Source: Amphiura filiformis (lineage: Eukaryota; Echinodermata; Ophiuroidea; Amphilepidida; Amphiuridae). Taken from it: a DNA stretch of 64,000 nucleotides. The stretch spans positions 806,001 to 870,000 of the forward strand of contig NW_027305510.1 of NCBI RefSeq assembly GCF_039555335.1, written 5' to 3'. The notes below the pieces were generated by a model that had not been told where the DNA came from, did no database searches, and was given only the letters and a program-made list of their open reading frames with translations. The position numbers were made by a program, and so were the translations under genes. Positions 21,343 through 64,000 of the stretch are shown here, piece after piece; within the stretch, counting starts at the first letter, position 1, and each line of letters opens with the position of its first letter.

Positions 21343-21705
21343 CTATATACCAGCTGGGACATACTTTATAAATTGGTCATGAAAAGATTTTTCTATCATC
21401 TTGTTTGCATCGTCGAGCTGTTTTTGGAATGCTAGGCTTTGATGGTCTCCATCAGCTGACGTGCATTTTACTACGTCCGTCGCATCTGCGTCATGTCCGA
21501 GCTCTTTCTTCAGGGCGACTTTTGCCAATAACAAATTGGCCACGTCTCGTCGTAGGTCTTGTATTATGTCATTCTGAATAGAGGTTATGTTTGTTAAGTG
21601 GCGATTGGTTTCTTCCAATTGACGATTGGTCGCGAGAGTCTGGTTGATGATTTCGTCTTTGGCCTGGACGATGCATTTGTATTCGCCTTGGATGTTTTCG
21701 TACAA
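21343..21705 (-). CDS. Small coiled-coil protein, unknown function
   Basis: The 120-residue product is mainly helical. Residues 15-70 have heptad-type spacing (NRQLEETNRHL, IIQDLRRDVANLLLAKVALKKEL), and a second helix follows near the end. It starts 12 bases after the stop of the 450-residue gene upstream on the same strand, so the two may share a transcript or be related parts. No family was recognised. It is the leftmost gene of the element. Confidence 0.6.
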   Translation of the reverse strand: MYENIQGEYKCIVQAKDEIINQTLATNRQLEETNRHLTNITSIQNDIIQDLRRDVANLLLAKVALKKELGHDADATDVVKCTSADGDHQSLAFQKQLDDANKMIEKSFHDQFIKYVPAGI

Positions 21706-21717
21706 GTGCGTCTTTCT

Positions 21718-23070
21718 TTACAATTCTGCGACGTAAGCCTTGCTGTGGGGATCGATGGACAATAGCGTATCTTCGACAGTTTTTATTTTCTTATCGGTCG
21801 TTCTTGTCGTTCGATCCGAAAGTTTCAAATTCCTAACAATCGACTCCTTCCTAGTTGGCTCTATCGACGATTCGGTGGTGCTGGAAAGCGATCCTGGGAA
21901 GCAGGCATCGACGAATCTGGCGACTCCTCCGGCAAGACTTTCTTCCTCGATTAGCTCGTGTGGACAGTCGTTTTTGACGGTGACTTTCATCTTGGTCACT
22001 TTAGTTGGGGGTGGTATTTTGAGAGACGTACGTATTCTCAACGGCTGCCACGCTTCCGCAACTTTCCACGTACCAAGTTGGAATGACAACGTACGACCGA
22101 AATTCTTGGACGGGAAAGCCACCTTACAGTCCGTCCGACCTAACAAGATCGGCAGTTGGCATTCTTCCTCGAAGAACGTTCTCAGTTGTTCGTCGAGGTC
22201 TTCGACGGTTACGCTGTCTTGCACCGACCCGAAACTGACCGACATCACGTAAGGGAAAAGTTGCACCTTGATATAGTCGTCGGGTCCCTCACCACACAGC
22301 TTCACCGCTTCTTCTTCGTTGATCTCATCCATACCAAATGGAATAGGTACCGCCATCTGAATCTCGTACGTGTAGCTATCTGCCTTGTTCTTTGGAATGG
22401 GTACTTTCGTACGGAGATAATCAGGTACGGTCCTGGTTTTAGATTTCTTGCTCGGTCTTGTCTTCTCTGTTAAGGATATGTCCAAAGGTTTTGGATATTG
22501 GGTCAGGGCTTTCATGTCGCAGACGACGGATGAGAATTTGGCGCTGGGTTGCGACGGTAAGAACAGTTTGTCGACTCTTCCTGTCGACCTGAGGCGTTGA
22601 CACGCTTGTTCGTCGCTTAAACGTTGCATCACGCTGTTTTCCAAATGAGTTTGAAGTAGAGTGCGAGCCTCCTTCGGGTTACACGCCACGGCTTTCAACG
22701 CTCCTTCCTCGCCTTCGACGAACATTAGATGCGGTATTTTGTCGAAAGACCTGCTTGTCTTCCCTTTCAACGAGCTTAAGATTTGTGGCAGGAACAGTAC
22801 GTTGTAACCTTCAACCGTTACTTCTGGCTGCGGTCCGATGAGCTGTTTCGCCAATAAATCTACGTCGACTTCTTCGTCGTGCGGAATCTCATTGCTGAAA
22901 AAATTATTTATGCAATCATCGACAATCGGGCCAAGCATGTTAGCATCTATCATCTGGGCCATATTCTCAAAGTAGTACTCGTCCTGTTCCTCCAGATTAT
23001 TCTCGCTGTTCAGTATGCTGTTGATATCGTACAACTCGGCCATTGTGTTCTGTTCGTTGATACTAGCCAT
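21718..23070 (-). CDS. Unknown 450-residue protein
   Basis: A long, clean open frame with no recognised domain. The first 90 residues are acidic (Asn/Glu/Asp-rich), the middle (about 205-240) holds a basic segment with KKSKTR and a Pro-Lys stretch, and the C-terminal third is Ser/Thr-rich. There is no signal peptide or membrane segment, so it is probably intracellular. A TATA box on the minus strand at 23,116-23,122 lies 46 bases before the start. It shares the upstream gap, with its CRE-type sites, with the divergent gene at 23,406. A nucleic-acid-binding or structural role is possible but not shown. Confidence 0.7.
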   Translation of the reverse strand: MASINEQNTMAELYDINSILNSENNLEEQDEYYFENMAQMIDANMLGPIVDDCINNFFSNEIPHDEEVDVDLLAKQLIGPQPEVTVEGYNVLFLPQILSSLKGKTSRSFDKIPHLMFVEGEEGALKAVACNPKEARTLLQTHLENSVMQRLSDEQACQRLRSTGRVDKLFLPSQPSAKFSSVVCDMKALTQYPKPLDISLTEKTRPSKKSKTRTVPDYLRTKVPIPKNKADSYTYEIQMAVPIPFGMDEINEEEAVKLCGEGPDDYIKVQLFPYVMSVSFGSVQDSVTVEDLDEQLRTFFEEECQLPILLGRTDCKVAFPSKNFGRTLSFQLGTWKVAEAWQPLRIRTSLKIPPPTKVTKMKVTVKNDCPHELIEEESLAGGVARFVDACFPGSLSSTTESSIEPTRKESIVRNLKLSDRTTRTTDKKIKTVEDTLLSIDPHSKAYVAEL

Positions 23071-23115
23071 CTCGACGGTCGATGCAAAATGAAATGACGA
23101 ACACCGATGTGCCGC

Positions 23116-23339
23116 ATTTATACTAACGAGCGTCGATGCGAATGGCTGTTTGAACGTGACGTCGTCGAAAGAAGTTATCGTAACGTCACATAATGAACAT
23201 TACTCGACGACAATCGATCAGATCGCAACGCCACGTTGAACTCGTTCATTGTATGTGTGACGTCACGTTTATCTCGATATCGTGACGTCACGTTATCTCG
23301 ATGTTGTGACGTCACGTTGCTCACTTTTTACCTATAAAT
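23116..23339. promoter_or_regulatory. Bidirectional promoter with phased CRE-type sites
   Basis: TGACGTCA occurs at 23,258, 23,283 and 23,307, about 24-25 bases apart within a short tandem unit (ATCTCGAT.T.GTGACGTCAC). Related sites TGACGTCG (23,157) and TAACGTCA (23,181) lie to the left. TATA boxes face outward at both ends: 23,116-23,122 on the minus strand and 23,333-23,339 on the plus strand. TGACGTCA is the known CREB/ATF palindrome. Confidence 0.75.
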
Positions 23340-23405: not shown

Positions 23406-24281
23406 ATGGAAGATTTGCCGCATACTCCTTCACAGTTCGAGATGGAGGAACAACGAGCGAAACAGCTCCTGAATTCCTTAATGGACGACTATCTTCTCAA
23501 GGACAAAGCGATCAGCGAACGCATGATACAAGTTATGCAGGAGTCTGCGAAGGAATTCACAAGACATCACGACGTTCTTCGGGTCATACACGAGAAAGGG
23601 CTAGAGGACATCGCGTCCATTTTTGAGGTAGGCATACGTGTTTAACATTTAGGATAAGGACTATATGAAAAACAACGTCACGAAAACGTCGTCATTTTAC
23701 GTGTAATTTTGACTAAACACTAATCGAATAAACATATTGAATTGCAGGAACGGAGACAAGGAAAGACAGAGAGTGGCGGAGCTTCGGCAGAGCAGTACGG
23801 TGGCAGACAGAGAAGATATCCTAAGCAGTTGTACGTCGTGGTACTGACGTGTTTGCGTAAAGATCACCGCAGGGACCAGGTGGAAACCGATTTCAAGAAA
23901 CTGATGTCTTTGTTCGATAACAACAGTTACGGCATCTTGATGGTGGGAGCGACGATGTTTTACGGGTGCGTCGGATACGTCGACGAACCTCTGGCCTTAC
24001 CGCTGGACGTCGTATTTCAAATGGGAAACCCCGTGGTTTGGTGTATGCACGATTTTGTCGACGAATTGAAGAGCTGCAGACGGAGATATCACAACACCCT
24101 CTATCATGTCGACCGCGATATACTAGATATTATGGTCTACAAGAACCCAAGAACAAAAATGAGCAACAGATCCTGTAACAATTTCTGCTTGAAGAACATC
24201 GTCACAGAAGAAGAAATAGAACGCAGCCGGCTCAACGACGAAATCCAACAATACTGCAAAGACGACCAGATGGAAGATTGA
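23406..24281 (+). CDS. Unknown protein, probably with one short intron
   Basis: The first open segment (from 23,406) encodes a helical N-terminal part with MEEQRAKQLL and many charged residues. The second (to 24,281) encodes a compact region with VVVLTCLRKDH, LDVVFQMGNP and a charged tail. About 120 bases between them have GT...AG borders and a pyrimidine-poor acceptor, in the same phase, so a short intron is likely. The TATA box at 23,333-23,339 lies 67 bases before the start, and an AATAAA follows near 24,409. No domain was recognised. It is divergent from the 450-residue gene across the CRE-type cluster. Confidence 0.6.
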
Positions 24282-24953: not shown

Positions 24954-25871
24954 TTAACTTGACCCCCGGGATCTAACAGATTGAATCACTGCCTTCATCG
25001 CCTTAACTTGCGACTTCAATCGTGAAATTTCATCATCTTCATTTAAAAACTCCTGCAGGCAACTGGAGTCGTAAAAGACATTTTCTACTTCTTTTGATTT
25101 GTCTTCCAGGTTTTGTTCCAGGACCCTAATTTTAGATTTCTGTTCAAGAAAATCTGTCCTGAGTTTGATTACCAAAGCTTCTCTTTGGGCGTTTTGGTTT
25201 TGCCATCTAGAGTTGTACTCAATTATCCTTTTCACTTGATCTAAAAGTCTTGAATTGTCTCTTTCCAGTGTTAAATTTTGTCTTTCCAGGATTCGAACTT
25301 TTTCTTCCGGCTTCAAATTATTTGACAAACGTGCTTTCTGTCGAACGACTTCCGTTAGATTCGCTTCTTGACTTGTTGCCTCGTCGTTGGATGTCATTGT
25401 GACAGAAGATAGTCGTTCTAATAAATCTTCAATCTCAATGGTTAGTGTCTCGCATGTAGCTTCTGTAGTTTCTTTATTTTTATTGAGTTGTTTCACTTTT
25501 TCAGTAAGTCTTGCAATTGTTTGATCCTTATCGTTATCTGAAGCTTTCATGCATTCATTTAGTTCAAATATTTCTTTGTTTTGTGCCCTACGCTGTTCGG
25601 TAATTTTCTGAATAATCCTTTCTAATTTGAATATCCTGTCTAACTGATTTTTTTTTGGTTCCGCGAAAGCCTCTTTCACCTCGGTTTCCAGTGCCAGTCT
25701 TAGTCTTAAGTTCTTTGATACCAACCTATACAAATACTCTTTATCGAGACCCGGCATATCATGTAATCGACTTTGAAGGTTTTCCACGGCCATATCTCTT
25801 TTCAGGCTTGCCGTCATATGCGAGAAGTTGATAACGTCGATGCATCTTGAGCTGTCACCGTCGTCACTCAT
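24954..25871 (-). CDS. Coiled-coil protein, paralogue of the gene at 48,016-49,049
   Basis: The 305-residue product is a long coiled coil from about residue 70 to the end. Its stretch LERDNSRLLDQVKRI..N..WQNQNAQRE (about 215-250) matches the paralogue's LERENTRLVDQLKEV..N.HWQRYDAQRE. No other domain. It may be structural or a scaffold for viral or cellular complexes; function unknown. A TATATATA run lies a few bases upstream of the start at 25,871. The frame is intact. Confidence 0.7.
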   Translation of the reverse strand: MSDDGDSSRCIDVINFSHMTASLKRDMAVENLQSRLHDMPGLDKEYLYRLVSKNLRLRLALETEVKEAFAEPKKNQLDRIFKLERIIQKITEQRRAQNKEIFELNECMKASDNDKDQTIARLTEKVKQLNKNKETTEATCETLTIEIEDLLERLSSVTMTSNDEATSQEANLTEVVRQKARLSNNLKPEEKVRILERQNLTLERDNSRLLDQVKRIIEYNSRWQNQNAQREALVIKLRTDFLEQKSKIRVLEQNLEDKSKEVENVFYDSSCLQEFLNEDDEISRLKSQVKAMKAVIQSVRSRGSS

Positions 25872-25952: not shown

Positions 25953-26389
25953 ATGCCTTTGCCCACGATGTGTACTATAACCCCGTGCGAGTTCGTTAAA
26001 CGGATGACAGATTTCGTCCTTCTGGATTGTCAGCCTTTTTGGTCATATAACAAAAGGCATATACTGAATGCTATCCACGTTAATTGCACAAGCGTTATTG
26101 TCCGTCGACGTATGATGTCTGGACAATTATCCTTGGCTCATTTGATACACGACGAAAAGGTAAAGCGTCGATGACCCGTCAAGAAAAACGCTTTGTCATT
26201 TACGATGAGCATGGGCTGGATGTCCAGGGTCTTCCCGAAGATCATCCTACAGTTTTGGTGTTCAAATCTGTGCATCCTGAAGGCTCGGACACGGAGGCAT
26301 GGATCTTGAGAGGCGGAATCGGGGAATTTGAAAAACTTTTCCCCGATCTATGCACGAATGGCCCAACTTGTTGTTACAATAAGCGTTAA
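25953..26389 (+). pseudogene. MAP-kinase phosphatase N-terminal (rhodanese/docking) module
   Basis: The region resembles the N-terminal rhodanese-like domain of animal MAP-kinase phosphatases: a LLDCQPFWSYNKRHILNA start, a VIVRRRM arginine-rich motif in the position of the kinase-docking site, and a later WILRGGIGEFEKLFPDLC strand-helix. In cellular enzymes this module binds ERK, p38 or JNK and a separate catalytic domain follows; no catalytic domain follows here. A role in binding or sequestering host MAP kinases is an inference. The locus looks broken about once. Confidence 0.7.
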
Positions 26390-26459: not shown

Positions 26460-27677
26460 CTACAAAGCAACGTCTAGGTTTTGTAACAAGCCGGAAAACA
26501 CGTCCGCAATTTCTACCAACTTCAGACGAGAATCCAGTTTGGAAAAAAGTATCAGCAGGTTACCTACTGCCTGTCTCAGTTGCATGTCACGTGTATTGGC
26601 CATCGCGGATCCGTAACAGAGGTGCGATGGTCTGCAGCATCTGCAGTGATCTTTTTGGATGAAAAGTTCGCATCTTGTCGGATGATGACGAACGACGTGC
26701 CTTTCCATTCCATCACCGCCGTGGGAAAATAAATCCCTGGTTCCTAAACCATCGTACTTCCACGTTGCCACTGTTCTGTAGGTCGTTAGACGTGGGGATA
26801 ACCAACATCCGCTTTGTCGAAACAACGTACATTCGTGAAATATTTCAGACATTTTCCTTACCAGAGCGCGAGCGTTGTCTTGGCTCCGTCTCGACACGGC
26901 AGCCACGTCGATGAAATCCGACTGCCAGTCGTAGTGCTCGTGTCCGAAATGATGATAGAGCTCGTGAGCGAGCTGCTCGGAATAGCTCAGGGCATCGATG
27001 TCCATCTCGATCGAATAAGATCGTGAATTGAAACGCGTGACATTTGCTTCAGGTTTGACTTCGCTATCTTCGTCATCATCTTGATAATGATTCCGAACAC
27101 CATCGAGTAATTCGCGTTTCGTTCTGGTATCCAAAACGGAAGAGACAAGATAAATATTGAAAATTCGCCATACCTCTCTGTTCTTCTTAACGCCTATCAT
27201 TCGCACTAATCCATCGTACATAGCGGCCGCTTTGCCGAATGTGACGTGGTTGTATCGACGGGTTTCGTCGAAAACTTTTGAATTCGGTTTCCAATCGAGT
27301 TGGAGACGAAACCTATAATCCGACGTTTTAACCCTCACAGCGTACACGACAACCGGTTTCGTTTTTCCGGATAGACCGGCGAACGTGTCACCGATGCCTC
27401 GTCCTTTTTTGGCGTATAAAAATCTTGGCAACTCGTTGCTGGTCAGCAGATCGGATTTTTTATCATCTTCGATAGGAGTACTATAATTTTTCGTAGATTG
27501 GACACGGTGGGTCTCAGTGTGCTCATCGTTAACCTCGTCGTCGTTTTTCTGAGTTTGAACGTCGACAACGGTTTTGTTTAAACGATTCGTCCGAGTCTTC
27601 GAAGAACGTCGACGGCTGCTGTTGTTGATTTTGGGTTTAGCGCAACGAAACGCGTGTCTCTTAGTAGGGGGTGACAT
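26460..27677 (-). CDS. Metzincin-like zinc protease or peptidase-like protein
   Basis: The start at 27,677 gives about 405 residues; an upstream ATG exists at 27,812 but would run antisense through the conserved DWNN coding region, so the shorter start is preferred. The motif HELYHHFGHEH fits the metzincin consensus HExxHxxGxxH exactly, with the Glu as catalytic base and three His zinc ligands. The N-terminal 70 residues are basic and low in complexity. The C-terminal part is Cys/His-rich (CELFIQKDHCRCC). No signal peptide is seen, so an intracellular role is possible. No specific family was recognised. The start codon overlaps that of the plus-strand DWNN gene. Confidence 0.6.
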   Translation of the reverse strand: MSPPTKRHAFRCAKPKINNSSRRRSSKTRTNRLNKTVVDVQTQKNDDEVNDEHTETHRVQSTKNYSTPIEDDKKSDLLTSNELPRFLYAKKGRGIGDTFAGLSGKTKPVVVYAVRVKTSDYRFRLQLDWKPNSKVFDETRRYNHVTFGKAAAMYDGLVRMIGVKKNREVWRIFNIYLVSSVLDTRTKRELLDGVRNHYQDDDEDSEVKPEANVTRFNSRSYSIEMDIDALSYSEQLAHELYHHFGHEHYDWQSDFIDVAAVSRRSQDNARALVRKMSEIFHECTLFRQSGCWLSPRLTTYRTVATWKYDGLGTRDLFSHGGDGMERHVVRHHPTRCELFIQKDHCRCCRPSHLCYGSAMANTRDMQLRQAVGNLLILFSKLDSRLKLVEIADVFSGLLQNLDVAL

Positions 27678-28350
27678 GACTACCGTTGTGTATCGATTTT
27701 CGTGCGAACGAGAAGAGCGCTTGGCGAGTAACGTTTGGACGTACCACGACGTCAAACAGAGAATAGCGGAAGATTGTAAACTTCGCAAAGATAGAACACG
27801 ACTGATTCTCAAATTTGACGACGACGTCGAGTCGACGCCAATAGATGACGACCGTGTGCAGAAAAATCGTCGACTTGTAGTTCAACGACTGCCAGTTCTT
27901 AGCGACGACGCGACCAGCTCCCAGAACGGTTCTTGCGAAAGATTTCCTTCTGCTAGAATGTCGAGCATCAAGACGACTGGACAACCTACTCCATCGCTTC
28001 GTAGAGATAACGCCTCTCTAGAGGCATGTCGTAGACGACAGTCTTACGATACATTGAGGAAATGGAACCAAATTCGAATAAAGTTGTCAAAATGTCGTCG
28101 AGTTTTCCACGAATCTCGCGACCCTTGCAGAAGCTCGTTGAGCAATAAGGTCACGGTGCTCGATTTTCTACGCCAAATCCGGACGAATCTCAACCGCTAC
28201 CCGTCAGTAGCCTTGGATGACTTCGATGACTTTCGAGCTGCCTATAAAGGTACGGTATATTTTGCGAGATACTGCGGTCGACGAGGCGAACATATGATTG
28301 CGTTAGAGCGTATTTTTTACGGATTATTCGAACAAGATTTTGCGAATTAA
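27676..28350 (+). CDS. DWNN (RBBP6-type) ubiquitin-like domain protein
   Basis: Residues 1-73 fit the DWNN domain found at the N-terminus of RBBP6: VVYRFS near the start, a DVKQRI helix, a DDDRVQKNRRLVVQRLP ending that mirrors the IPKNSSVIVRRIP of cellular proteins. DWNN is a ubiquitin-like fold that in RBBP6 is linked to a RING domain and to p53/Rb binding. Here no zinc knuckle or RING follows; the remaining 150 residues are basic and unknown. ATG at 27,676 is chosen because it starts the domain. The stop overlaps the start of the next gene by one base (TAATG). A role in host ubiquitination is inferred. Confidence 0.7.
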   Translation: MTTVVYRFSCEREERLASNVWTYHDVKQRIAEDCKLRKDRTRLILKFDDDVESTPIDDDRVQKNRRLVVQRLPVLSDDATSSQNGSCERFPSARMSSIKTTGQPTPSLRRDNASLEACRRRQSYDTLRKWNQIRIKLSKCRRVFHESRDPCRSSLSNKVTVLDFLRQIRTNLNRYPSVALDDFDDFRAAYKGTVYFARYCGRRGEHMIALERIFYGLFEQDFAN

Positions 28351-30466: not shown

Positions 30467-32059
30467 ATGGCCGCTTGTATTCTTTATCGTTACGAAGACA
30501 GTTTCAACGAGGCTCTCAGAGCCGAACTTCTGAATAAACTAGCGTTCGACGATATACCGACGGAAGTTCTTCAAAGTATCTTATATAGCGAGGACGATGA
30601 CGACGACGACTACGTGGATTTGCAGGACGAAGAAGAGTTAGTTGAGCTCATGTCGGCCAAGAATGAGAAAGGGGATGAAGAATCACGATGGTGGAATGAA
30701 AACAAAATCGAACAACTCACCGTCGATCGGTTCATGAAGTACTTTGTTCGTTCCAAACTGTTTCAACGAACCGTAAAAAGACTCTTGGATCCGGTATTTG
30801 CTCCTTCGAAGATGGAAACTCTGCAACTTGCCGATAACGGAGAAGATTTGCTGAGTTGCATCGAAGAAGGCGACGCTGCCGACCACCACGACATACTTAA
30901 ACTTCGAAAGGTAGATTTGATCAAGGTCGATAAAGATGTCCCTGGTTCGAGCATATCGGCAAAATACACGGCTAGTTTTGAATTTGAGACGGGAGCCAAT
31001 TCAAAACGCAAACGTTACGTCAACACGTTTTTCAACACTGGCTCTCTTTTTCTGCTGTTTGCATCTCTCGGCGAACTCGGTAATACCGGTGACACGAACA
31101 ACACGACGCAAAACGACATTCGGTTAGCAGATGCCAGCTACGAAATAGGCGTGAACGGCGATCTGCTTACGTGGGGAAGCAAATTGCGTTTCTTAAAGAA
31201 CGAGCTCGTGTCCGTCATCCTCGATGCCAAGTACCTGTGGAAGTGCATGGTGGCAGAACCGGATCACCCATTTTTCAAAGAATGCCATCCTGCCCGAAAC
31301 GGAGGGAGTCTGCAGACCAAGCTGTTTCTAAAGCGATACGCTTATCGATTTGCGATGCGTCATTCTTGCGAGATGACCGAAAAACAGATGCTTCCCAAGA
31401 TACGATATTCGAAGAACAGTGGGAAGCACTACATGAAATTCACAATGTCGGTCCTGCGAAAGATGGGCGCCAAGGAAAAACGAAAAAACTTCGACGACAA
31501 AAACAACATCACGGATTCATCACTGCGAAGCACTTTGCAGGAAGAACTTCGAATCTCATCTCAGAAGATCTACCGCTACTTCCACGTCTACCTTCACAGT
31601 CTACTGGGAAGAAAGAAACTCAATCATAACCGACGTGAGAAGTTAGGTTACGGCGATCTGATTAGATTCTGCGTGTCTGCAACGTGCTACTGCGATTCTC
31701 AAAAGAACGTGTTTACCGTGTTGCACTCGCCGCGAGGGACCGCCGAGGTGCTCCTGCACGGAATGTATCTGCGCAACGCCGAAGGAGCGGAAATGTCCAA
31801 ACCAAAAGTAGATGCGCGACTTCAGCAGATTGCGTTGAAAAACATGATGAAGATCGAAGATGACGATGACGATATCGGCGAACTCTTCTCTACGACGGAA
31901 GCGCTACCTTTCACTCAGATGAAGGAGTTGAAGTACGGAGAGTCGGACGACGTGTCCGATGCAACGGAACAGGACGACGACGACGACGTCCAAGGGTCCA
32001 GTTCCAAAAAAATGCGGCGCTCGATTACCAACGAGCCGTTTCAGTACAAGTCCGTGTAA
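30467..32059 (+). CDS. Novel two-member family protein A (530 residues)
   Basis: The product opens with an acidic linker (SEDDDDDDYVD at about 41-51), has a conserved core around residues 180-280 with NTFFNTGSLFLLFASLGELG and TWGSKLRFLKN...YLWKCMV, and ends with acidic runs and a basic KKMRR. A second copy lies at 46,287-47,755 and shares that core (FFRTGWVFVKFASLSELG, TWGAKLRSVK...YMWYTCV). No known family was recognised. TATAAAA at 30,396-30,402 is 65 bases before the start, and AATAAATAAA follows at about 32,110. The frame is intact. Acidic tails suggest a nuclear, histone- or DNA-associated, or virion protein; this is inference. Confidence 0.75.
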   Translation: MAACILYRYEDSFNEALRAELLNKLAFDDIPTEVLQSILYSEDDDDDDYVDLQDEEELVELMSAKNEKGDEESRWWNENKIEQLTVDRFMKYFVRSKLFQRTVKRLLDPVFAPSKMETLQLADNGEDLLSCIEEGDAADHHDILKLRKVDLIKVDKDVPGSSISAKYTASFEFETGANSKRKRYVNTFFNTGSLFLLFASLGELGNTGDTNNTTQNDIRLADASYEIGVNGDLLTWGSKLRFLKNELVSVILDAKYLWKCMVAEPDHPFFKECHPARNGGSLQTKLFLKRYAYRFAMRHSCEMTEKQMLPKIRYSKNSGKHYMKFTMSVLRKMGAKEKRKNFDDKNNITDSSLRSTLQEELRISSQKIYRYFHVYLHSLLGRKKLNHNRREKLGYGDLIRFCVSATCYCDSQKNVFTVLHSPRGTAEVLLHGMYLRNAEGAEMSKPKVDARLQQIALKNMMKIEDDDDDIGELFSTTEALPFTQMKELKYGESDDVSDATEQDDDDDVQGSSSKKMRRSITNEPFQYKSV

Positions 32060-32159: not shown

Positions 32160-32570
32160 TCAATTATACCATAGTTCCGTGAAAGCGTCAAAATAGTCGT
32201 TATCGAGTTGTTCTACATCCGTTATTAAAAATTCCGATTTTGATATTTTATCGTCGTGATTTGCATCCGCGTCGAGTAACAGATCGACGAAATCTTCGAA
32301 CGTGCCTGAAGATTTTTGCCATTCCTCGAGAGTGATCTCGCCGTCGCTGTTGTCGTCGATGGTGTTAAAAACTGCGAGGCTATTTCGATTATCCTGTTCA
32401 TCAATGGCTCTCTTGAAAACCCTAAGCGATTTCAGCAATCTCGTGGAATTCACTCGGAGAATCTTGTCTTTACCATCGTAGGTTACGAAGGACGAGCTTC
32501 CGACATTTCGTTAGCTGTCATCAGGACGAAACCTGTCACGTACAAAATGATGGCAAAATTCATCTTGTCT
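32160..32570 (-). pseudogene. Secreted-type EF-hand calcium-binding protein
   Basis: Two canonical EF-hand loops, DDNSDGEITLEE and DANHDDKISKSE, have Asp/Asn at positions 1, 3 and 5 and Glu at 12. A hydrophobic, signal-peptide-like stretch is encoded just upstream on the same strand. Two EF-hands in this spacing resemble calmodulin-like or sarcoplasmic small calcium proteins of animals. The locus looks broken about once. Its role in the element is unknown; a calcium-buffer or secreted effector is possible. Confidence 0.65.
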
Positions 32571-52471: not shown

Positions 52472-52611
52472 TGACGTAACGTATATTTAACGTGACGTCA
52501 CGCGTACTATTACAAACCCAATCGATGTGACGTAAAGCTTTGTTTTTCTTTCGCTCGAATTAACGGTGACGTCACGATTTGATATTGAGGCATCGTTGAT
52601 GCGTGACGTCA
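52472..52611. promoter_or_regulatory. Divergent kinase promoter with CRE-type sites
   Basis: TGACGTCA at 52,493, 52,567 and 52,604 and TGACGTAA at 52,472 and 52,528 lie between the PIM-like kinase (minus, start 52,407) and the second kinase (plus, start 52,706). This is the densest of the three CRE-type gaps. Confidence 0.75.
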
Positions 52612-52705: not shown

Positions 52706-53751
52706 CATGGAGTGCATAGACGTAGATGCCCCTCCGGTTAAGAAGAGAAGAGTAGAAGTAGGCGCCTCTCCGGCGAAAAAGAGACAGTTATTAGAAGATT
52801 ATCATTCCACGGTTGACTTGGATCCACTGACAGACCTGATGAGAAGCAAACCAAACTCAACGTACAAGTATATCAGGGATTTTCCGAATCACACCAGACG
52901 ATCCAAAGACCGTCCAGTCGTCGGTTTGGCAACGGATACGATAACAAATGAAAAGGTGAATATTACGAAGCTCGTCGTTACACATTGAAAGACGCGAAGA
53001 CTTTTTGACAAATTCAAGTAATGACGTTGGAAAATTTATTTTAACACTTTCTCTTTTTCTCGTCTCTCTTTTTTTTTTCATCCTTGCAGGTGATTCTGAA
53101 GCGACATTCCCTCGTTTGGGCTCCGATGGCGTCACCGAGCATCGAGGTCGATTGCCTGAAGCGGTTGAGGGGCATGGGATGCGTTATCGAGCTGCTGGAT
53201 TACTACAAAGAGAACGACGAACTCGTGATTGTGTTGGAATACCCTTCCCGGTGCTGTACTCTTTACGAATGCCTGAAGAATCATCGTCATCTTCCGGCGG
53301 AGATGACGTGGCAATCAATCATCGCTATGATAGCGAACGCTCTGCTAGTCTGTAAAGATAAATACATAGTGTATCGCGGATTGGAACCAAAGAACGTGCT
53401 GCTCTGCGCCAACGGCGGTGAATTTTCCGTCAAACTGTTGGACTTTGAAGATTGTATCGACATTCAATCGACATTCTTCGACGTTCAGAACGGTGGACCC
53501 TGCGAGAGAAGATTCGTCTATCCGAGGATTACCGTTCGCCGGAACAGGACATCGATGAAGGGGACTACGACCAGGAGGCCGCGCAAGTGTACGCTCTAGG
53601 TCGCATATTGCACGACATGGTAACGAATGGACTCGTTAGAGACTGCTCCGCAGCCAGGATAATGTCGGCCCGCATGACAGCAACGAATCCGGAACGCAGA
53701 CCGACGTTGGAAAGTGTAGTAGCCAACAAATGGTTGAACGGGGAATTCTAA
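52706..53751 (+). pseudogene. Divergent kinase, pseudokinase-like
   Basis: The N-terminus has a nuclear-localisation-like PPVKKRRVEV and a repeated SPAKKRQ. A kinase-type N-lobe follows (VVGLATDTITNEK, then VILKRH after a GT...AG-bordered gap), with IEVDCLKRL as helix C and VIVLEYP as hinge. The C-lobe has a degenerate catalytic loop (KNVLL) and KLLDFEDC, and a late NPERRPTLESVVANKWL. The catalytic signature is not typical, so it may act as a pseudokinase. The intron-like gap lies at the same place as in the PIM-like gene, next to the VIK strand. The locus looks broken about once. Confidence 0.65.
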
Positions 53752-53929: not shown

Positions 53930-55516
53930 ATGATGACCACCGACTTTGAAGAAGCAGCCTCCTTCGTATTGACTTGCTCGATATGTTTCGAGTATTACTC
54001 CGATCAGAACCTGCCAAAACAACTGTTCTGTCAGCACGTTTGCTGCGAAACTTGTCTCGGTAAACTGCAAACGCTGGGACCTCCAAATGCACCGATCACT
54101 TGCCCCATGCGATGCGCAGAAAACACGGTCGTTCCGCCGGGTGGTGTAGCGGATTTGAAGACCAACATTTACTTGTTAACGCTTGCCGAACAGCTTCCGA
54201 ATAAGGTAGGAGGATCACCGTCGAAGGAGCCTCTCGATGAAGGCGTTCATTGTCTGCGAGGTGCGTTGAATCGATATGAATCGTCCAAGGCTGAACTCGA
54301 AGCTGAGATTCGAGAACTGGAAAATGCTGAAAGTGTTATTCGAGAAAGCACGAGCACCTCGCAGGAACGCGTACGTCGTAGCGTGCAACTTTACGTAGAC
54401 GTTGTGAGAAGAGAAGAAGCAGAGTTACTCGATTTCGTCTCGTTAGAAGGCGCCAAAAAATTGCAAAAGGTTCGCGAGAAACTTGCAGAGGCCGAGAAAC
54501 GTCTCGCAAAGTTCATCGATATCGAAAACGTTTCCTCGACGGTCGATAACGTTGATTCTGCCAATTATCTGGCCAGCAACACAACGGTTATACCGCTGCT
54601 ACAAAAACTTAATCGAGCCACTCAAGAGCTGATAGAGGAACCGTGCCGATTTTCGACAATCGTATTCGACCCTCGCCGAATCGACAAACCTCCAAACCTT
54701 GGACGATTTGTGTCCTCCGTGCAACTGGAGCCATGCGAGGAAAAGACTTTAACGGACTTCGTATCGGCCAAACACATCCACTTGGCTCGCAAGTGCAAAG
54801 GGTTACCAGGAAGCGACGGTGCGAACGATGCGTTGTGCGTGTGCGATCATTTTCGGGGAACACTGACCGTCTTTCAGAAAATAAATGGCAATTACGAAGA
54901 AGTTAAACGTCTCGCAAACGTGTCCCACCTTCAGGATGCCATCATCAACGACGATGCGTCACTCTGGGTAGCTAAATGGTCGTCCATCGTTCGTTACGAA
55001 TCATTGGCGGTGGATCGGTTTGATGTGATTCAGTCTAACGATAAGCGATTGACGGGTTACAATTGTCTGTCACGAGGCGAACACGGTGACGTGTTTGCGG
55101 GAGATTACATAGAATGCAGCGTAGGAAGATACGACAGAAGAGGTGTTCTTACAAAAGTGTACCAAACTGCCGTTAAACCTAACTTCGTTCACGTCGTCAA
55201 AAATTCCCATTTAGTATTAAGCGACTGGAAAGCGTGTAAGGTTAGCGTGATGGATCTGTCGAACGGTAAAGAAATGTTGGCGATCGACGTGACGTCGAGG
55301 GTACAAGGAATGTGTTACCATGAGAAATCCGACTGTTTGCTCGTCGCGAGCTCAGATTCAGGAAACGGCGTGATAGAACAGTATTGTTTTCAAAGTGGTA
55401 CGTTCGTAGCCCGTATCGCGCAAAGACTGTTACGTCCCATGAGCATCACGATGGATTCAGACGACACGTTGATCATTGCCAATGGCAAAAATGTACAATT
55501 CATGAAAGTATTGTGA
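53930..55516 (+). CDS. RING-coiled coil-propeller protein (TRIM2/3-like)
   Basis: The 528-residue intact frame has a C3HC4-type RING at about residues 16-59 (CSICFEYYS...CQHVCCETCLGKL...ITCPMRC). No B-box is seen. A coiled coil follows (about 105-195, LEAEIRELENAESVI, AEAEKRLAKF). The last 240 residues hold repeats like an NHL-type beta-propeller (DALCVCDHFRGTLTVF, DSDDTLIIANGKNVQF). In TRIM-NHL proteins the RING is an E3 ubiquitin ligase and the propeller binds RNA or protein. This is a likely host-derived ubiquitin ligase. Confidence 0.8.
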   Translation: MMTTDFEEAASFVLTCSICFEYYSDQNLPKQLFCQHVCCETCLGKLQTLGPPNAPITCPMRCAENTVVPPGGVADLKTNIYLLTLAEQLPNKVGGSPSKEPLDEGVHCLRGALNRYESSKAELEAEIRELENAESVIRESTSTSQERVRRSVQLYVDVVRREEAELLDFVSLEGAKKLQKVREKLAEAEKRLAKFIDIENVSSTVDNVDSANYLASNTTVIPLLQKLNRATQELIEEPCRFSTIVFDPRRIDKPPNLGRFVSSVQLEPCEEKTLTDFVSAKHIHLARKCKGLPGSDGANDALCVCDHFRGTLTVFQKINGNYEEVKRLANVSHLQDAIINDDASLWVAKWSSIVRYESLAVDRFDVIQSNDKRLTGYNCLSRGEHGDVFAGDYIECSVGRYDRRGVLTKVYQTAVKPNFVHVVKNSHLVLSDWKACKVSVMDLSNGKEMLAIDVTSRVQGMCYHEKSDCLLVASSDSGNGVIEQYCFQSGTFVARIAQRLLRPMSITMDSDDTLIIANGKNVQFMKVL

Positions 55517-56890: not shown

Positions 56891-57166
56891 TTAGTCGTGC
56901 TGAATCCCACTGCAGATGTTTAGTTTGTGGTCTTGACATCGCTTTTGACAGTTGGTTCCAACGAAGCGTGAATGGCACCGGCAAGTGTAAAATCCGTTTC
57001 CATGACTAGTACATGTCCCACCATTTTGACACGGGCTGGGAGAGCACGGGTTAGAACGTTGCATGGTTGAGGTTTTCAAAATAGAACGAGCGTGTGTCAG
57101 CGTTGACAAAGACAATGCTGCGAGACAGAAAGTAATAAGATAATATGAGATGCAGGAGAACTTCAT
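56891..57166 (-). CDS. Secreted EGF-like peptide
   Basis: The product has an N-terminal signal peptide (MKFSCISYYLITFCLAALSL from 57,166), a short pro-region and one EGF-like domain with six Cys (CSPSPCQNGGTCTSHGNGFY, then TCRC and GTNC). It has the Delta/Notch-type PCQNGGTC motif and no membrane anchor. Poxvirus growth factors are secreted EGF relatives that stimulate host cells; a similar role is inferred here. An ATG at 57,232 would add 22 residues before the signal. The frame is intact. Confidence 0.8.
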   Translation of the reverse strand: MKFSCISYYLITFCLAALSLSTLTHARSILKTSTMQRSNPCSPSPCQNGGTCTSHGNGFYTCRCHSRFVGTNCQKRCQDHKLNICSGIQHD

Positions 57167-57313: not shown

Positions 57314-58367
57314 ATGGCGACCGTCGATGACTCCACCACGTTCGACAAGAGATTGGAGTTGATTTCTCGAGGTCAAACCGATATTCTGGGTGGCAACGAT
57401 AAACTCGTACAACTTTTGAACAGCGGAAAGGAGATTTCCGTGTTGTGGGGAACGGCTACCACAGGGAGCCTCACGTGGCCTACTTCGTGCTTGCCACTAA
57501 GATCGCCGATCTCCTTCGTGCAGGATGTAGAGTTGTCGTGCTGTTTGCCGATCTTCACGCTTTTCTGGACGAGGCCGAATTAGAATGGGAAGGACGTCTT
57601 ACGTATCGACTAGAGTATTACGAAAACGTCATCAAAACTCTCCTCCAACAATTTGACGCGCCGCAACAAAAACTGGAGTTCGTTCACGGAAGGGACTATC
57701 AGCTGACCGACTCCTACATTACCGACTTGTACGTACTTTCCAAATCCGTAACGCAACGTAACGCTAAAAAAGCCGGGTCCGAAGTAGTAAAGAAAAATAC
57801 CAGTCCGACGTTAGCCGGACTTCTTTATCCGTGTCTTCAAGCCCTCGACGAAAAACATCTCGGCGTCGATTGCCACTTGGGAGGCGTAGATCAGACAAAA
57901 GCGTTCACGTTTGCTGAAAAATATCTTCCCAAGATAGGATGCCCAAAGAAAATCCATCTGATGACTCCGATGGTGCAGGGACTGACGGGGAAGAAGATGA
58001 GTTCTTCCGCGGAAGCGACAAAGATAAACTTGCTCGATGATCGAGCCACGGTGTTCAAAAAGATCAACGATGCCTTTTGCCACCCCGGCAACGTAGATCT
58101 AAACGGGTGCTAGGGATAGCCGAACACATCATCTTTCCGAACCTTCAGGATGGGCGTTTCGTCGTTGAGAAATCTGGCGGAGATTGCGTCACGTTCGTCG
58201 ATTTTCGATCTCTAGAATCTGCGTTCAAGAATCTAGACTTGCATCCACAAGATTTGAAAACGGCAGTTTCCGTCGAACTCGATCGTCTCTTAGATCCGAT
58301 CAGGAAGCGATTGGATACGCCAAAAATGCGAAACCTCGCACAATGTGCATATTCTACGGTTGTCTGA
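57314..58367 (+). pseudogene. Tyrosyl-tRNA synthetase
   Basis: The sequence follows the eukaryotic cytosolic/archaeal TyrRS: PHVAYF at the HIGH position, [63 protein letters not shown] with GGVDQ, and the GKKMSSS loop, ending in a LLDPIRKRL helix. The C-terminal EMAPII-like domain of animal enzymes is not present. TyrRS is known from mimiviruses, but this copy resembles the animal cytosolic enzyme. A TATATATA box lies near 57,265. The locus looks broken about twice. Confidence 0.85.
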
Positions 58368-58505: not shown

Positions 58506-61500
58506 ATGAGCGTCATTACAGCTAGCTCGTGCGACCTTGGCTCTTTAGGGACATTAGTTCGAATGAAAACTCCGAAAGAGTCATTAACCAAGGAATGGCC
58601 TCTTCCTATCTTTATCGTGGACAAGAGCGGTAGTATGGGGCACTGGGTCAGACGACTGGTCCAGCAGATTATTCCAAATGCCCTGGAGAGAGTGGGATAC
58701 CCAAAAGACGGACGAGTTCGCCTCCTCGCATTCGACGAAAGCGTTATATCTCGGACAACTACAATTAATGATCTGCGATCGACCACCGACATCAAAGCCG
58801 GCGGGAAAACGAAAATAACTGACGCTATCAGATTACTGAATACATCTTGTTTCACCGATGGACTTCACTCGTCCTTCGTCGTATACGCCATCAGCGATGG
58901 AAAAATTGACGACAAGGAAAAATTGAAAGCGTTGAGTGCGATAGATCAAGAACGTCAACGTCAACGTGACAACAGAATCCGTACCGGTTACTGCAGGTTA
59001 AAAACATCCGAATTCGACAATCCAGACACGAAAGTTTTGGCCAGTTTATCCGCGTTCAATACTTTCGGCAGTCCCGTCGGGACGACCATCGAGGTTAAGG
59101 ATAGTGGTACTGAAAATGCAACGCTTGTAGAGAATACGATATTCGACGCACTTTCGCAGATTCTAGTTCCCACCGGAATCGTTCTGGAAAGTGAAAACGA
59201 AGTCCTGAGGCATATGCCCCACGGCAAACCTAAGTCCAAGCTATCTCTTCCGATCGACAGGAAGTCAATTTTTCCTGTCCAATTCCAGCGAGATCGTCAA
59301 ATGCGAAACGAAGGTAGTGCGTTTGACGAACGAAGATATCTTGTCGGATTCGACCGGAGTAGAACTTCTACTACGAGACATCAATACGAGGATTAGACAT
59401 CTGCGAGTCGGTGGTTCCACAAACATGCACGAAGAAGCGGATCAACTTCTTAAGTGCGTCGACGTCATCGATTCGCTATTGATGTTTAAACTTGGTCCAT
59501 TTGTAAGGATGAAAGTTTTAGAACGTTTGAAATTGATGAAGCATTCCCTCTTTCGTCAATACAAGGATTCTATCCGTTGCATCAGAGAATTGGGTAACGA
59601 TCGAAAAGTGAGTGATCTGAACGATAAGCAACAAGCCGCATATCTGACGGCAAAACCGATCTCCAAAAGTTTAGCCAAACGTGCCAATAAGATAGATCCT
59701 ACTTTGGACTACGACGGACTTTGTCAAAAGGCCCTTCGGCGCTTGAAAATGACCGAAGAAAACATCCAAGATCTACGCTCTCCAGGGACAGCTGTCAGAT
59801 CTGTTTACAATTTCGATACCTTCCAGGAGATAATCGAAGTGGCGTACAAATTGGCTCGTGATACAACCAATTATTCTGTGTACCAACTTATGCCCGTAGT
59901 AGGCGGCTTGGGTGTAGCATTTCGATCGAACCATAAAGATCCGGATCTTACCGATCCATGGCAACTTAAAGTGACGCAAGTGTACTGCGGCACTAGTTAC
60001 GTTCCGAATGCGATCTTCAATCGGCCAGAGCTATCAAGAAAAATATCGTTTATCCCGGTTTCGGATCGGAAGCTATTATGACGGGCGTCGTGCCTCTTAT
60101 CACGTTGGACGAAACCTCTTACAAGATCTACATGCACGAACTCAAAGAGATATCCGAGTTTCACGCCAGTCTGTCTCTTCGTGGAATATTCGCGCGAATT
60201 CCTGGCGATGTAGCGGCACGGATCGCCGGGGTCTTGGTCGCTCTCTGCAGACAAATCGGTCCCGACGGCAAAACGACGGAGCCCCAGAGAGATATTTTAC
60301 GGGGATTACGCGAAACGGCGCAAGCATGGTGCGAAGATAACCCGACAAAGTATTCCTTGGTCATCGAAGCGTTGCTCAAGATTCATCCGGAAAACTGGTT
60401 ATCTGGAGACGACGGTTACAACGTCACTTCCAGTCTGAAACCCTTATTTCTGTTTCTCGCGTCACCGCTGTGTGAGAAAGTACGCAACGACGTTCAGAGA
60501 CGCCAGGGGGTTATGAGAGCCCTTTACACGCTTCACATCTACTGCGAATGCAAGGGACGTTACCGCAGCGATGTGAAAGGCAGATGGAGAGACATACGTA
60601 AACTTTTGGGAATCGATCTGAGGAATAACGGAGTGCCAGTCGGTGAATATTTCGACAAAGATGCCGAGTACGAATTGACATCCACCCTGGATTACTCCGA
60701 AGCTTTCGAAATATTAAACGCTCAATTCTCGTGGTGCCAGGACCCTCTGGAGTTCGCTTCCATTCTTCGATGTTTGAACGTCGACGAAACCGTCGACGTA
60801 CCCGGTGCTTACGGAATCGACGATGGAAACTTGTTGAGATTGATGGCCGCGATCGACGCCCTGCGCTGCTCGACGGAAAACATGCGCGTCGACAAGAATG
60901 ACCATTCCTTTAACGGACCCGATTACGAAAATCTCTCTCAATGTCGTAAACATCTGGAAGGCATTTACGAGTTGCAGTTCAGAGAAGATTACGACAAAAG
61001 ACTGGAGAAAAAGAAGCTACACGAACGAGAGTGCGAGGACCAAAAGGACATCAAGAACGATGTAGATTGCACGAGTCTAGTGGAATTCGTAGACCGTCTC
61101 ATTAACAGAACCGTTACCGTCGCCAAATCGAAGTATAACGATACCGCGAAATTCATCTTGCCTTTCTACAACGATCGCAGCTCTCCAAATTACCGCGAGC
61201 TGCTAAGACGCGTGCTCGAAAACAAAGATGTTCCGCTCAGACGCGAGAAGCTTTGGGTGATGATCACGGGATTTTATCCGTATCTCCCAGCTTCTCAGGT
61301 CAGGGTGTTGGCCTGGGCAAAGGGTAATTCGTCGCGGCAGGATCTGAGCAAATTGGAACGACGAAATAGGGAGTCCAGAGGTGAAACATTGGACGGTAAA
61401 TTCTGGCGGTCGATTCGCAGCTTTGTCGACGACAATACGCACTCTTACAGAAAGGACCTTCCAAACCGTCACGGGCACAGCGACAGCAAGCCGTCATTCT

Positions 61501-61601
61501 GGTCATTGGGCTACTCGAGTGTATCGGACATGGAATGCAAGATCGGTGTCGAAGATTTCGAAAGGTACAGGAAAGAACACAAGGCATGCTGCGGTTTCTA
61601 A
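58506..61601 (+). pseudogene. Large VWA-domain protein
   Basis: Near the N-terminus is a von Willebrand A domain: LPIFIVDKSGSMGHWV (the DxSxS metal-site motif), VRLLAFDESV, and GGKTKITDAI with a late FVVYAISDGKI. After it come long helical regions (GLCQKALRRLKM) and a C-terminal part that is helical and charged, with LEKKKLHERECEDQKD. The total span suggests about 1,000 residues. VWA domains of this kind bind partners through a metal site. The TATA box TATAAAA at 58,452-58,458 lies 47 bases before the start. The locus looks broken about twice. The C-terminal part from 60,078 could instead be a separate gene. Confidence 0.65.
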
Positions 61602-61750
61602 TTGACGAAGGTATCGACATTCATCGAAACGCCGTGTTTGAAATCAAAATAATCTTATAATAATTTGATACGATTAATTTGTATTTATGAATATTATCAA
61701 TACTGATACGATTAACATATTAAAGTTGAAATATACGCAAGTTTATTAAA

Positions 61751-64000
61751 ATGAATCCTGAAAGTAACAATTTGACGTATCGTGTGATTTGTTCGAACGA
61801 CGGACGTACCTTTACCTACACGGAGGAAGAATGGTCAAAGTTATGTAAAAGAATATATTACTTTGGTGCATTTCAAGAGTTTGTAACGGATGGCGGTGGA
61901 TCGTCTTTCATCGACGATTCGAAAAGAAGGACGGTTCGGTTAGCCGACGTCGACTCCAACGTTTACGAACGCATCGATACCTATGGCAGGAATGGCACTT
62001 TTGCCGACACCGTTACGGCCGACATTTTCTCCGACTACTGGAAGCAATCGATTACTTTCAGATCGACGGCACGGACGAGGACCTGGCACGTGCCATCGAC
62101 GAAAGGTGTGTATTTTACTCTGAGGCGAATCAAACATTACCCAATTCGTCGTCGATTGACGATCTTTACGTACAATGTACCGAAGTACTCTTTGAATCGG
62201 ACCGGTTTCTGTCGTCGCAATTTACCCAAATCAAACGCTCGTTGGCCGATCTGTGTTTGTTCATCGACGGACGTCCCGATCTGTACAGACGTGTTCCAAA
62301 AGAGCTCGTCGATCACATTCTGCAATGCGACCGAAGGAAATTTGGACTCGAAAGAGACGTGTTTGCAGTAGCGTTGATTCGTTGCGAAAGTCGAGGCAGT
62401 CTCGGCGATCTGCTACGTTTGATACGAAACTTTCGAATCGACTGGCCTTCCGACGTTTCGCCTTGGATATTCGGTGATTCCACCAGAGCAAAAATATCGC
62501 GAGTGTATCGTCGATTGGTTGACGTTTGGCTTACCGATACGACAAACAGTCATTCCTTCATCAAGATGGAGAACGCTATTATGCTTCGAAACATGATGAT
62601 GGGAGTGGACAACGTCGACGTCGAAGACCCGGATTTGACCGAGAATTTCAAATCCGTGTACGATTCGCTTTCGACTTTAGTTTATCGGGGCTTCATGAAC
62701 AAAGATGCCCTAAAGCGTAAATTGTACGAGGACGAAACGAGAGTTTTACAACTTCCAAGATACGAGCGTTCGACGCTGTTGGTAGACGACGAATTCAGGT
62801 TGTACGAGTATCATCCGTACGTGCGACGATTCCGTCTCGTAGCCCTGCCCCCGACTCGATTCGAAACGGAGCTAAATAAGTTTCCGGACTCGTTTACCGT
62901 GGTGCCGCACAGGTCGTCGGGCGTTTGGATGATCGCTGACAGTCCGACAGCATTCACTCTCGCCGACAAAAGGAACTTGTTAAGAACGTGGCATCAGTGG
63001 CGTTTAAGAAACGATCCCTTTTGCTGGTCTGGTTCATCGACTTCAACCGAGACTTCGAACGATGGCACGATCGCAGCAACGGTGGTACTTTCGAAGAGAG
63101 AAGCGACACGTTCGAACATTACGAATGGAGACCCATCCCGCATTGCACCTTACCCGTTGATAAAACCAACGCCAACAGACGTTGGGCCGATATGAAGATG
63201 GTCGTATCGAGCGGGCACGTCGACGACGTGCCGTTGGTGTTCGTCGGATATTTTCCGGAGAATTCCAGGGAATTGAAATGGACCGGCTATTTTCTTGAAC
63301 GCGGTCATATGGGAGGGTACGTCGATCTACCTAACGATCGTATCATCGACATTCGAGCCAGCCATCACAGTCCGAACGAACAATACACCCACCTGTACGT
63401 CATGCGACAAAAAAGCTTTGTGAGGGGACTGGATATAGCCATTTACCTTATTGACAAAAGCGAATGGGCCGAAAGGAGAAGATATCAGTTCGTTACGCTC
63501 AGCGTACTCCAACATGAGATGACGTTGAGGAAAGTCGTCGATCATTCTGCGGTGCCTGTAGATATGTTCCATCATCAAGGTCGCATAGCGTGCATGCCTT
63601 CCGGTCGGCCTTTTTTCATCACGCACGCACCTTCTTGGGCGTACGATCCGATCTCGGAGACCAACGTCATTTCTTTGAATTGCGCGACCTTAACGGAAGA
63701 GTATGTCTGGGATAGCTTTTCGTTACGGATTCCAGATCCCAATTCGACGATTCCACCGTACGCCTTCGGCAGTACGCTTTACTTGTACGGCGTAACGACG
63801 ACCGACGAGAACGTGATCATCAGCGATGGAATGAAAAGTTTGACGTTATTAAAGGGACGTCATATTATCGTCGACGTCGAAAATCGTAAAGCGTGGTTGC
63901 AAGATTTTGTAGCGACCGATGATGGGAAGTCGTCGTTGTTCCAGAAGAAATCGGACGATGAGATAAGAAGCGCTTGGAGAAAACACAGCCCGTTCGTAAC
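61751..64000 (+). pseudogene. Large BTB/Kelch-like protein, copy 2 (runs off the window)
   Basis: The N-terminal region has a BTB-like pattern (YYFGAFQEFVTDGG, TVRLADVDSNVYERI) followed by a BACK-like helical section (CLFIDGRPDLYRRVPKELVDH, VDVWLTDTTNSHSF). The second half is beta-rich (DDVPLVFVGYFPENSRE, STLYLYGVTTTDENVI) in the manner of a degenerate propeller. It is a paralogue of 38,522-40,760. The gene continues past the right edge. The visible part looks broken about twice. Assignment to BTB/Kelch is by pattern only. Confidence 0.5.

Follow-up and report, generated by a model that had tools for sequence, protein, structure and literature searches.

The DNA from about position 21,399 to the end of a 64,000-nucleotide stretch of the Amphiura filiformis genome (Echinodermata, Ophiuroidea; RefSeq assembly GCF_039555335.1, contig NW_027305510.1, positions 806,001 to 870,000 of the forward strand; hereafter the window) is, in our judgement, likely to be a fragment of the genome of a large, hitherto undescribed animal virus with double-stranded DNA. 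The genes of this element are densely packed on both strands, mostly lack introns and are foreign to the flanking host DNA, as expected of a large double-stranded DNA virus. Its products include a YqaJ-type exonuclease, a 530-residue protein with relatives in public contigs, and a set of host-like regulators, one of them a likely mimic of CEP55.

A gene-dense element beside an animal gene

The two parts of the window differ sharply in composition. The best change point in order-3 Markov log-odds falls at 21,399, GC content is about 0.37 before the boundary and about 0.44 after it, and the observed/expected CpG ratio in 4-kb blocks is 0.68–0.83 in the left part and 1.31–1.65 in the right. We place the junction zone, which has no strand, at 21343..21399; the left coordinate of the element is accurate to about 100 bases, and its right end is only the end of the window, which lies within the element. 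The sequence is continuous across the window, with no N. It contains a single junction, the right flank lying beyond the window, and self-comparison of the window found no repeat common to the left and right parts and no host repeat inside the element.

Between 21,343 and 64,000 there are 45 open reading frames (ORFs) that begin with ATG and encode at least 100 amino acids, against a mean of 7.6 in 50 Markov-resampled versions, and 30 that encode at least 150, against a mean of 0.98; the corresponding counts in the left part are four and zero. Coding is on both strands, and 79% of the element is taken up by 46 main ORF frames. On the host side (1..21342, plus strand), Pfam and the CpG ratio indicate an intron-split animal gene with Calx-beta domains at 5420 and 7412, both above the Pfam cut-off, and receptor-tyrosine-kinase exons, of which those at 13672 and 14091 are above the cut-off and those at 9725 and 17944 below it. 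Thus, the original prediction of more than 42 kb of compact genes on both strands beside animal DNA is borne out, with the correction that there are frame changes within several genes and that three genes seem to be spliced.

We searched Pfam with 54 frames of the element, some of them overlapping, and 15 reached the curated cut-off. The families found are EF-hand, YqaJ, two F-box proteins, one dual-specificity phosphatase, Bcl-2, BTB and BTB-BACK (two frames of one gene), the EABR/UBAN coiled coil, two kinases, EGF, tyrosyl-tRNA synthetase, VWA and rhodanese. Below the cut-off but plausible are an RNA ligase, a RING finger, a DWNN domain, a second phosphatase domain and the last piece of the second kinase. 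For the remaining frames Pfam gave either nothing or weak hits under the cut-off, which we attribute to chance. With YqaJ above its cut-off, the RNA ligase below, and host-like domains recognised by Pfam, the predicted combination of viral-type enzymes with captured cellular regulators holds. Seven paralogue pairs lie within the element.

An exonuclease and a 530-residue protein with relatives in public contigs

The gene at 32663..33403 (plus strand) encodes a nuclease of the YqaJ/viral alkaline exonuclease family. It scores 47.5 bits against PF09588 (YqaJ; cut-off 22) and 22.8 bits against PF01771 (Viral_alk_exo; cut-off 20), the YqaJ score being the higher. D122, E140 and K142 are invariant in all nine aligned sequences, so that the acidic/ExK core is kept. 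Among 226 candidates we found 13 relatives: six (P0006–P0011) are 66–79% identical, P0012 is shorter and close to P0008, P0013 and P0014 are 39–44% identical, and the remaining four are distant YqaJ proteins, one of them from a tick. None of the 13 carries a viral name, save one distant 'putative phage-type endonuclease'.

The 530-residue core protein, encoded at 30467..32059 (plus strand), is 53–75% identical to five full-length proteins of public contigs (5 of 7,999 scored candidates), and a further scan added one fragment (6 of 7,998). Close relatives of the two proteins, 53–79% identical, were seen only in public contigs, and the earlier claim of gene families seen only here was therefore too strong. 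The contigs of P0001 and P0007 are of equal size (both 3,935), as are those of P0005 and P0011 (both 7,913), and because of these equal sizes the two genes apparently lie close together in two other contigs as well.

A second copy of the 530-residue gene is found at 46287..47752 (plus strand), its longest frame being 32% identical. Three of its frames line up with successive parts of the family model, at positions 5–56, 90–328 and 366–419 (with E-values from a four-sequence search), and the copy contains at least two frame changes. Its last frame (47456–47752) was assigned by eye only; a third frame change considered there was dropped, since the family model gives no support for that frame.

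Promoters and predicted introns

Of 35 genes, 18 have a TATA[AT]A motif in the 150 bp upstream of them, whereas 200 shuffles of the same segments gave 6.3 such genes on average and at most 13. These shuffles replaced a control of random positions, which was too lenient because intergenic DNA is AT-rich. The palindromic cAMP response element (CRE) TGACGTCA occurs eight times in the element, against 0.61 expected, and once in the left part, against 0.24. Three of the eight sites are at 23,258–23,314, one is at 37,085, one at 37,217 and three are at 52,493–52,611. Six of them thus sit in two divergent promoters, the first (23258..23314) between two divergent genes and the second (52493..52611) between two divergent kinase genes.

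Three genes beside these two CRE groups have predicted GT..AG introns of 120–134 nt. The first, at 23406..24281 (plus strand), would consist of exons 23406–23627 and 23748–24281 around an intron of 120 nt (23628–23747), read by eye from the sequence alone. In the PIM-type kinase gene described below, splicing out a predicted intron of 122 nt (52183–52304) lifts the Pfam score from 140.6 to 152.3 bits, and the match then covers profile positions 1–263 instead of 27–263. In the second kinase gene, removal of a predicted intron of 134 nt (52956–53089) moves the start of the profile match from 48 to 24. We read the TATA boxes, the three predicted spliced genes and the adjoining CRE clusters as signs that the element would be transcribed in the nucleus.

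A CEP55-like protein combining EABR and UBAN-type segments

The ORF at 48222..49265 (minus strand) encodes a protein with an EABR, the type of segment that binds ALIX and TSG101, and a UBAN-type coiled coil. Its N-terminal half matches the Pfam EABR family (PF12180) with 33.3 bits against a cut-off of 25, and its C-terminal half matches NEMO CC2-LZ (PF16516) with 36.4 bits, narrowly above the cut-off of 35.3. In PDB searches, all nine matches of the C-terminal 225 residues at E of 5 or less are ABIN1, ABIN2 or optineurin, and the 61-residue EABR stretch matches CEP55 at 0.0078 (3e1r) and 0.0091 (3wut). CEP55 itself is laid out as an EABR followed by a UBAN-type coiled coil, and bears a C-terminal zinc finger. 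The EABR of the element's protein has a Trp aligned to CEP55 W184 and a Tyr aligned to Y187. PMC10121106 describes Tyr187 of CEP55 as essential for ALIX.

Like CEP55 and the ABIN/optineurin UBAN proteins, the element's ORF thus has an EABR and then a UBAN-type coiled coil, with the Trp and the ALIX-essential Tyr kept. Unlike cellular CEP55, it lies in virus-like DNA, has an internal 147-bp tandem duplication, and shows no C-terminal zinc finger. A coiled-coil paralogue is encoded at 24954..25871 (minus strand; 39% identity over 74 residues, 6e-10); by eye, it retains the EABR Trp and lacks the ALIX-essential Tyr, and Pfam detects no EABR in it.

Some of the structural searches speak against this assignment. 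The whole CEP55-like protein matches no PDB chain at 0.001, and the best match of the UBAN part reaches only 0.0023 and is to ABIN1, not CEP55. In the EABR search an unrelated transporter protein (0.0042) ranked ahead of CEP55 and five further rows were unrelated, and a PDB search of this type with the paralogue did not find CEP55. Taking both sides together, we consider the product of 48222–49265 a likely CEP55 mimic, and predict that it would recruit the endosomal sorting complex required for transport (ESCRT). No virus-encoded CEP55 or UBAN protein was seen among the papers listed in the literature searches for one.

Tandem or direct duplications are clustered within about 3 kb of the element, at 48476–48764, 49648–50447 and 51040–51269. 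Their units are 147, 223 and 103 bp long and 85–98% alike, the 147-bp duplication being the one inside the CEP55-like ORF.

Putative host-like regulators of signalling, survival and ubiquitin

A PIM-type protein kinase is encoded at 51517..52406 (minus strand). It has a full kinase domain by Pfam, it matches PIM in the PDB at 1.3e-53, and among the matches listed (60 of 1,335) the 42 best are PIM-1 or PIM-2. Like the PIM kinases, it spans the whole kinase profile once spliced; unlike them, its gene is compact, with one intron and a divergent CRE promoter in common with its neighbour. That neighbour (52707..53751, plus strand) is a second kinase-like gene matched by Pfam, with a frame change near 53.5 kb. 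By eye, it has Gly at the position of the catalytic Asp and an altered DFG motif, and is therefore probably a pseudokinase.

Two tandem dual-specificity phosphatase domains, with frame changes between them, lie at 41081..42273 (minus strand); the first is above the Pfam cut-off and the second below. In comparison with DUSP3 (1.9e-17), the first has Ser for the catalytic Cys and Gln for the Arg, and the second likewise lacks the catalytic motif by eye, so that the Cys and Arg of an active phosphatase are missing. A rhodanese domain is encoded at 25953..26386 (plus strand) in two overlapping frames, the first matching Pfam with 23.2 bits against a cut-off of 22.2 and the second assigned by eye, with no Pfam match. 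It appears by eye to be of the MAP-kinase-phosphatase type, and its frames carry no phosphatase domain.

The ORF at 44585..44956 (minus strand) encodes a Bcl-2 family protein (Pfam 5.5e-26; 91.5 bits against a cut-off of 31.4) with matches to BAX, Mcl-1 and Bcl-xL. A small EGF-like protein (56891..57166, minus strand; Pfam EGF 1.4e-6) has a start that resembles a signal peptide by eye. The tyrosyl-tRNA synthetase at 57314..58367 (plus strand) comprises the catalytic part only. Its match, at 1.2e-79, is of the eukaryotic cytoplasmic type; two frame changes were placed by eye, and the last frame has no Pfam match. The animal enzyme has a C-terminal domain; here the next ORF begins at 58,506, which leaves no space for one, and the enzyme is therefore truncated.

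Several products have domains of ubiquitin-related proteins. There are F-box proteins at 36221..36670 (minus strand; 24.6 bits against 24.3 in Pfam) and 43329..44003 (minus strand; Pfam), and a BTB-BACK protein at 45281..46113 (plus strand), in which the frames on both sides of a change near 45.5 kb match Pfam. A RING-finger protein with a coiled coil and a possible beta-propeller lies at 53930..55516 (plus strand; zf-RING_5, E 2.4e-5, 24.7 bits, cut-off 27.9), and a DWNN-like ubiquitin-fold protein, resembling the N terminus of RBBP6, at 27676..28350 (plus strand; E 0.0017, 19 bits, below the cut-off of 26).

A possible mode of action

The functions that we infer for the element's proteins, as distinct from the domain matches, promoter motifs, predicted introns and conservation described above, could combine as follows. 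The genome would be transcribed in the nucleus by host RNA polymerase II, with the CRE-driven, spliced kinase genes acting early. The YqaJ exonuclease, encoded near the virus-specific 530-residue protein, would serve DNA recombination or maturation. Host-derived mimics would keep the cell alive and disarm its signalling: Bcl-2 would counter apoptosis; the PIM kinase, the pseudokinase and the dead phosphatase and rhodanese decoys would act against MAP-kinase signalling; the EGF-like protein may be a growth factor; and the F-box, BTB and RING proteins may redirect ubiquitin ligases. The CEP55-like EABR/UBAN protein would probably recruit ALIX/TSG101, and with them ESCRT, for egress, or would block abscission.

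If this is true, a new lineage of large animal DNA viruses could become recognisable and classifiable in existing assemblies and metagenomes, and the use of a CEP55 mimic would be a viral ESCRT strategy open to experiment. Pseudokinase, pseudophosphatase and rhodanese together would amount to one pathway hit by several decoys.

Points against the viral reading

A number of results weigh against a viral identity or against single assignments within it. Across the 42.6 kb, no polymerase, capsid, terminase, packaging gene or helicase reached the cut-off among the 54 frames searched in Pfam, just as the original prediction had recognised no hallmark polymerase or capsid gene. Within the window, Pfam found neither the double-jelly-roll capsid, A32 ATPase and D5 primase of Nucleocytoviricota nor the HK97-type major capsid protein and terminase of Herpesvirales. 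Scans of IMG/VR returned one weak match only, the phage contig L001, and scans of GTDB genomes no relative. PHROGs, NCBIfam and PADLOC gave nothing useful except a lambda-exonuclease family below the cut-off. An AlphaFold2 model of the 530-residue protein built on six sequences was poor, with a predicted local distance difference test (pLDDT) score of 33.9. Poly(A) signals, at 19 against a shuffled mean of 11.8 and maximum of 21, do not exceed the shuffles and were dropped as evidence for that reason, and splicing barely alters the score of the second kinase (46.0 to 46.7 bits).

Up to 14 candidate frame changes, mostly placed by eye, weaken claims on individual proteins. Four are backed by matches on both sides (one in the BTB-BACK gene, one in the second kinase and two in the second copy of the 530-residue gene); the others were placed by eye, and neighbouring genes may instead explain the ones near 59.2, 60.0, 62.1 and 63.0 kb. 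In seven places just one stop separates two ORFs of 80 or more codons in the same frame. One of these stops (21,718) possibly lies within a gene, and we read the other six as antisense or between genes.

Conserved sites bear on the age of this damage. The 530-residue protein deviates at 3 of 189 sites that are invariant in its relatives, which themselves deviate at 10 to 46 of 196–232. For the exonuclease the count is 4 of 109, against 4 to 14 of 109–119 in relatives, from seven of the nine aligned rows, with the two most distant omitted. The counts of the window copies are as low as, or below, those of any relative, although the relatives had been retrieved by searching with the window proteins themselves, which biases the window's counts downwards. 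The pattern of frame changes suggests residual sequencing error or very recent damage rather than long decay.

Free virus, integrated virus, or something else

We see close to an even chance that the element is a free infecting virus which the assembler joined to a host contig. CpG is undepleted, no repeats are common to the two parts, and divergence at conserved sites is low. The defects, namely frame changes and one same-frame stop between gene-like ORFs, are what under-polished long reads would be expected to give. Less easily explained is that the boundary lies close to a gene end (the stop at 21343), a place that a random chimera would hit only by coincidence.

A real junction at 21.4 kb, with the virus integrated in an animal chromosome as an endogenous or latent genome, is a serious contender that falls somewhat short of an even chance. 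The continuous sequence with no N and the sharp boundary near a gene's stop would suit it, and large nuclear viruses do endogenise in invertebrates, nimaviruses in shrimp being an example described in PMC7016691. However, the window contains no second junction and no host repeat inside the element, CpG is undepleted, and constraint is still visible at conserved sites. The original prediction therefore stands well as to a virus-like element outside recognisable families. It is less secure as to a seat in the host chromosome, for which there is one junction and neither CpG depletion nor host repeats.

Compatible with a viral identity, and a distinct possibility although we would not call it the expected outcome, is that the element comes from a divergent member of Herpesvirales, of Nimaviridae and kin, or of Nucleocytoviricota, with its hallmarks outside the window. 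The exonuclease passes the Viral_alk_exo cut-off (22.8 against 20 bits), and PMC7016691 describes spliced genes and genes captured from the host in an endogenous nimavirus. Against this, the window holds no hallmark, and the 13 exonuclease relatives, which include a tick protein, have no viral names apart from the distant 'putative phage-type endonuclease'. That the element fits no familiar group is true only of the 42.6 kb seen, and hallmark genes may lie beyond them.

On the viral reading that we prefer, it is a tempting but rather doubtful idea that the element gives a first sample of a distinct order or family of large nuclear DNA viruses infecting early-branching or marine animals. Such viruses would have core genes unrelated to those of herpes-, nima- and nucleocytoviruses, a captured CEP55 as their own ESCRT adaptor, and dead kinase, phosphatase and rhodanese decoys holding host MAP-kinase and ubiquitin signalling. 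Among the papers listed in the literature searches, which did not extend to subscription papers and preprints, there was no described virus that has this set of genes.

A cellular parasite or symbiont, such as a reduced animal or protist, with a compact genome stuck to host DNA is very unlikely. Predicted introns, TATA promoters and many eukaryotic domains would agree with one, but the truncated tyrosyl-tRNA synthetase is the only housekeeping-type protein among 54 frames, and the recombination nuclease, Bcl-2, signalling decoys, many orphan ORFs and in-element paralogues suit a virus better. We give hardly any credence to an old, decayed viral fossil, despite the up to 14 frame changes and a second 530-residue copy split over at least three frames, because conserved sites are kept (deviations at only 3 of 189 and 4 of 109) and CpG is undiminished, with just one same-frame stop between long gene-like ORFs.

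Other genes and features of the window

The first long ORF of the element (21718..23070, minus strand) encodes 450 residues and has no Pfam or NCBIfam match; a weak PHROG baseplate match at 0.029 was read as chance. A further open frame of 124 residues at 21343–21717 is in frame with it, with one stop between. An EF-hand protein (Pfam) lies at 32160..32510 (minus strand). The RNA ligase occupies 33573..34828 (minus strand), its first frame matching PF09414 (E 5.4e-5, 23.8 bits against a cut-off of 27); after a frame change near 34.2 kb, the second frame was assigned by eye and has no Pfam match. Self-comparison of the element's proteins revealed a tandem paralogue pair at 34993..36011 (minus strand; 50% identical) and two closely related duplicated ORFs at 49447..50830 (minus strand). 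The ORF at 38522..39481 (plus strand) is a distant paralogue (24% over 124 residues) of the frame at 61849–63195. A likeness of the 38522 and 61751 proteins to BTB/Skp1, suggested by inspection alone, was set aside. A VWA-domain ORF (VWA_CoxE, 28 against 26.4 bits) followed by long ORFs in changing frames extends over 58506..61601 (plus strand), either as one broken gene or as neighbours, and ORFs in changing frames at 61751..63998 (plus strand) are still open at the window end.

Four matches below the Pfam cut-off were rejected as chance: Packaging_FI (0.0089) in a coiled coil, MCM_C (0.059) on the exon at 23406, Abhydrolase_9, and a DDE transposase in the BTB frame. The IMG/VR contig L001, matched by the exonuclease profile, has ORFs that read as those of a phage with a lambda-type exonuclease.

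A tRNA-Trp gene (38281..38354, minus strand) lies inside a 500-bp stretch of host-like composition. This stretch, 38001–38500, also has a long A run beside the tRNA gene and is perhaps captured host DNA. One other 500-bp block of the element, at 51,001, is slightly host-like by composition. Just left of the junction, at 19547–19907 and 20382–20640, there are mutually related inverted-repeat elements that resemble miniature inverted-repeat transposable elements. The host gene contains several repeat copies (about 60–110 bp) of a kinase-exon fragment at 14227–14950, and the host part also has GAGTCC/GGACTC-rich repeat arrays at 10124–10315 and 12186–12298.

Comparison with known systems

Animal YqaJ proteins (for example P0016, from Amblyomma) belong to the same nuclease family as the element's exonuclease, with 30% identity. 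They are 383–410 residues long, against about 245 for the element's protein, and unlike them the element-type exonuclease is apparently linked to the 530-residue protein in two other contigs.

Herpesvirales, including Malacoherpesviridae, resemble the element in having an alkaline-exonuclease-type nuclease, the family recognised here by PF01771. Herpesviruses also have CRE-rich early promoters. They differ in that no capsid, polymerase, terminase or helicase-primase is recognised in the window, and in that the element's exonuclease scores higher as YqaJ. Bcl-2, a further point of likeness, is known in herpesviruses and other double-stranded DNA viruses, as stated in PMC11209288.

The closest well-described analogue in behaviour that we found is the endogenous nimavirus of shrimp, a likeness by analogy. 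Unlike endogenous nimaviruses, the element shows no nimavirus core gene in the Pfam results of this partial window, in which no direct comparison was made; its captured genes are different and it has one junction only, and the word 'exonuclease' does not occur in the main text of the nimavirus paper (PMC7016691). The paper credits Nimav-1_LVa with 117 genes; introns occur in some of them, and host genes for apoptosis and signalling have been captured. Like the element, then, endogenous nimaviruses as described there are large nuclear DNA viruses lying next to invertebrate DNA, with some intron-containing genes and genes captured from the host.

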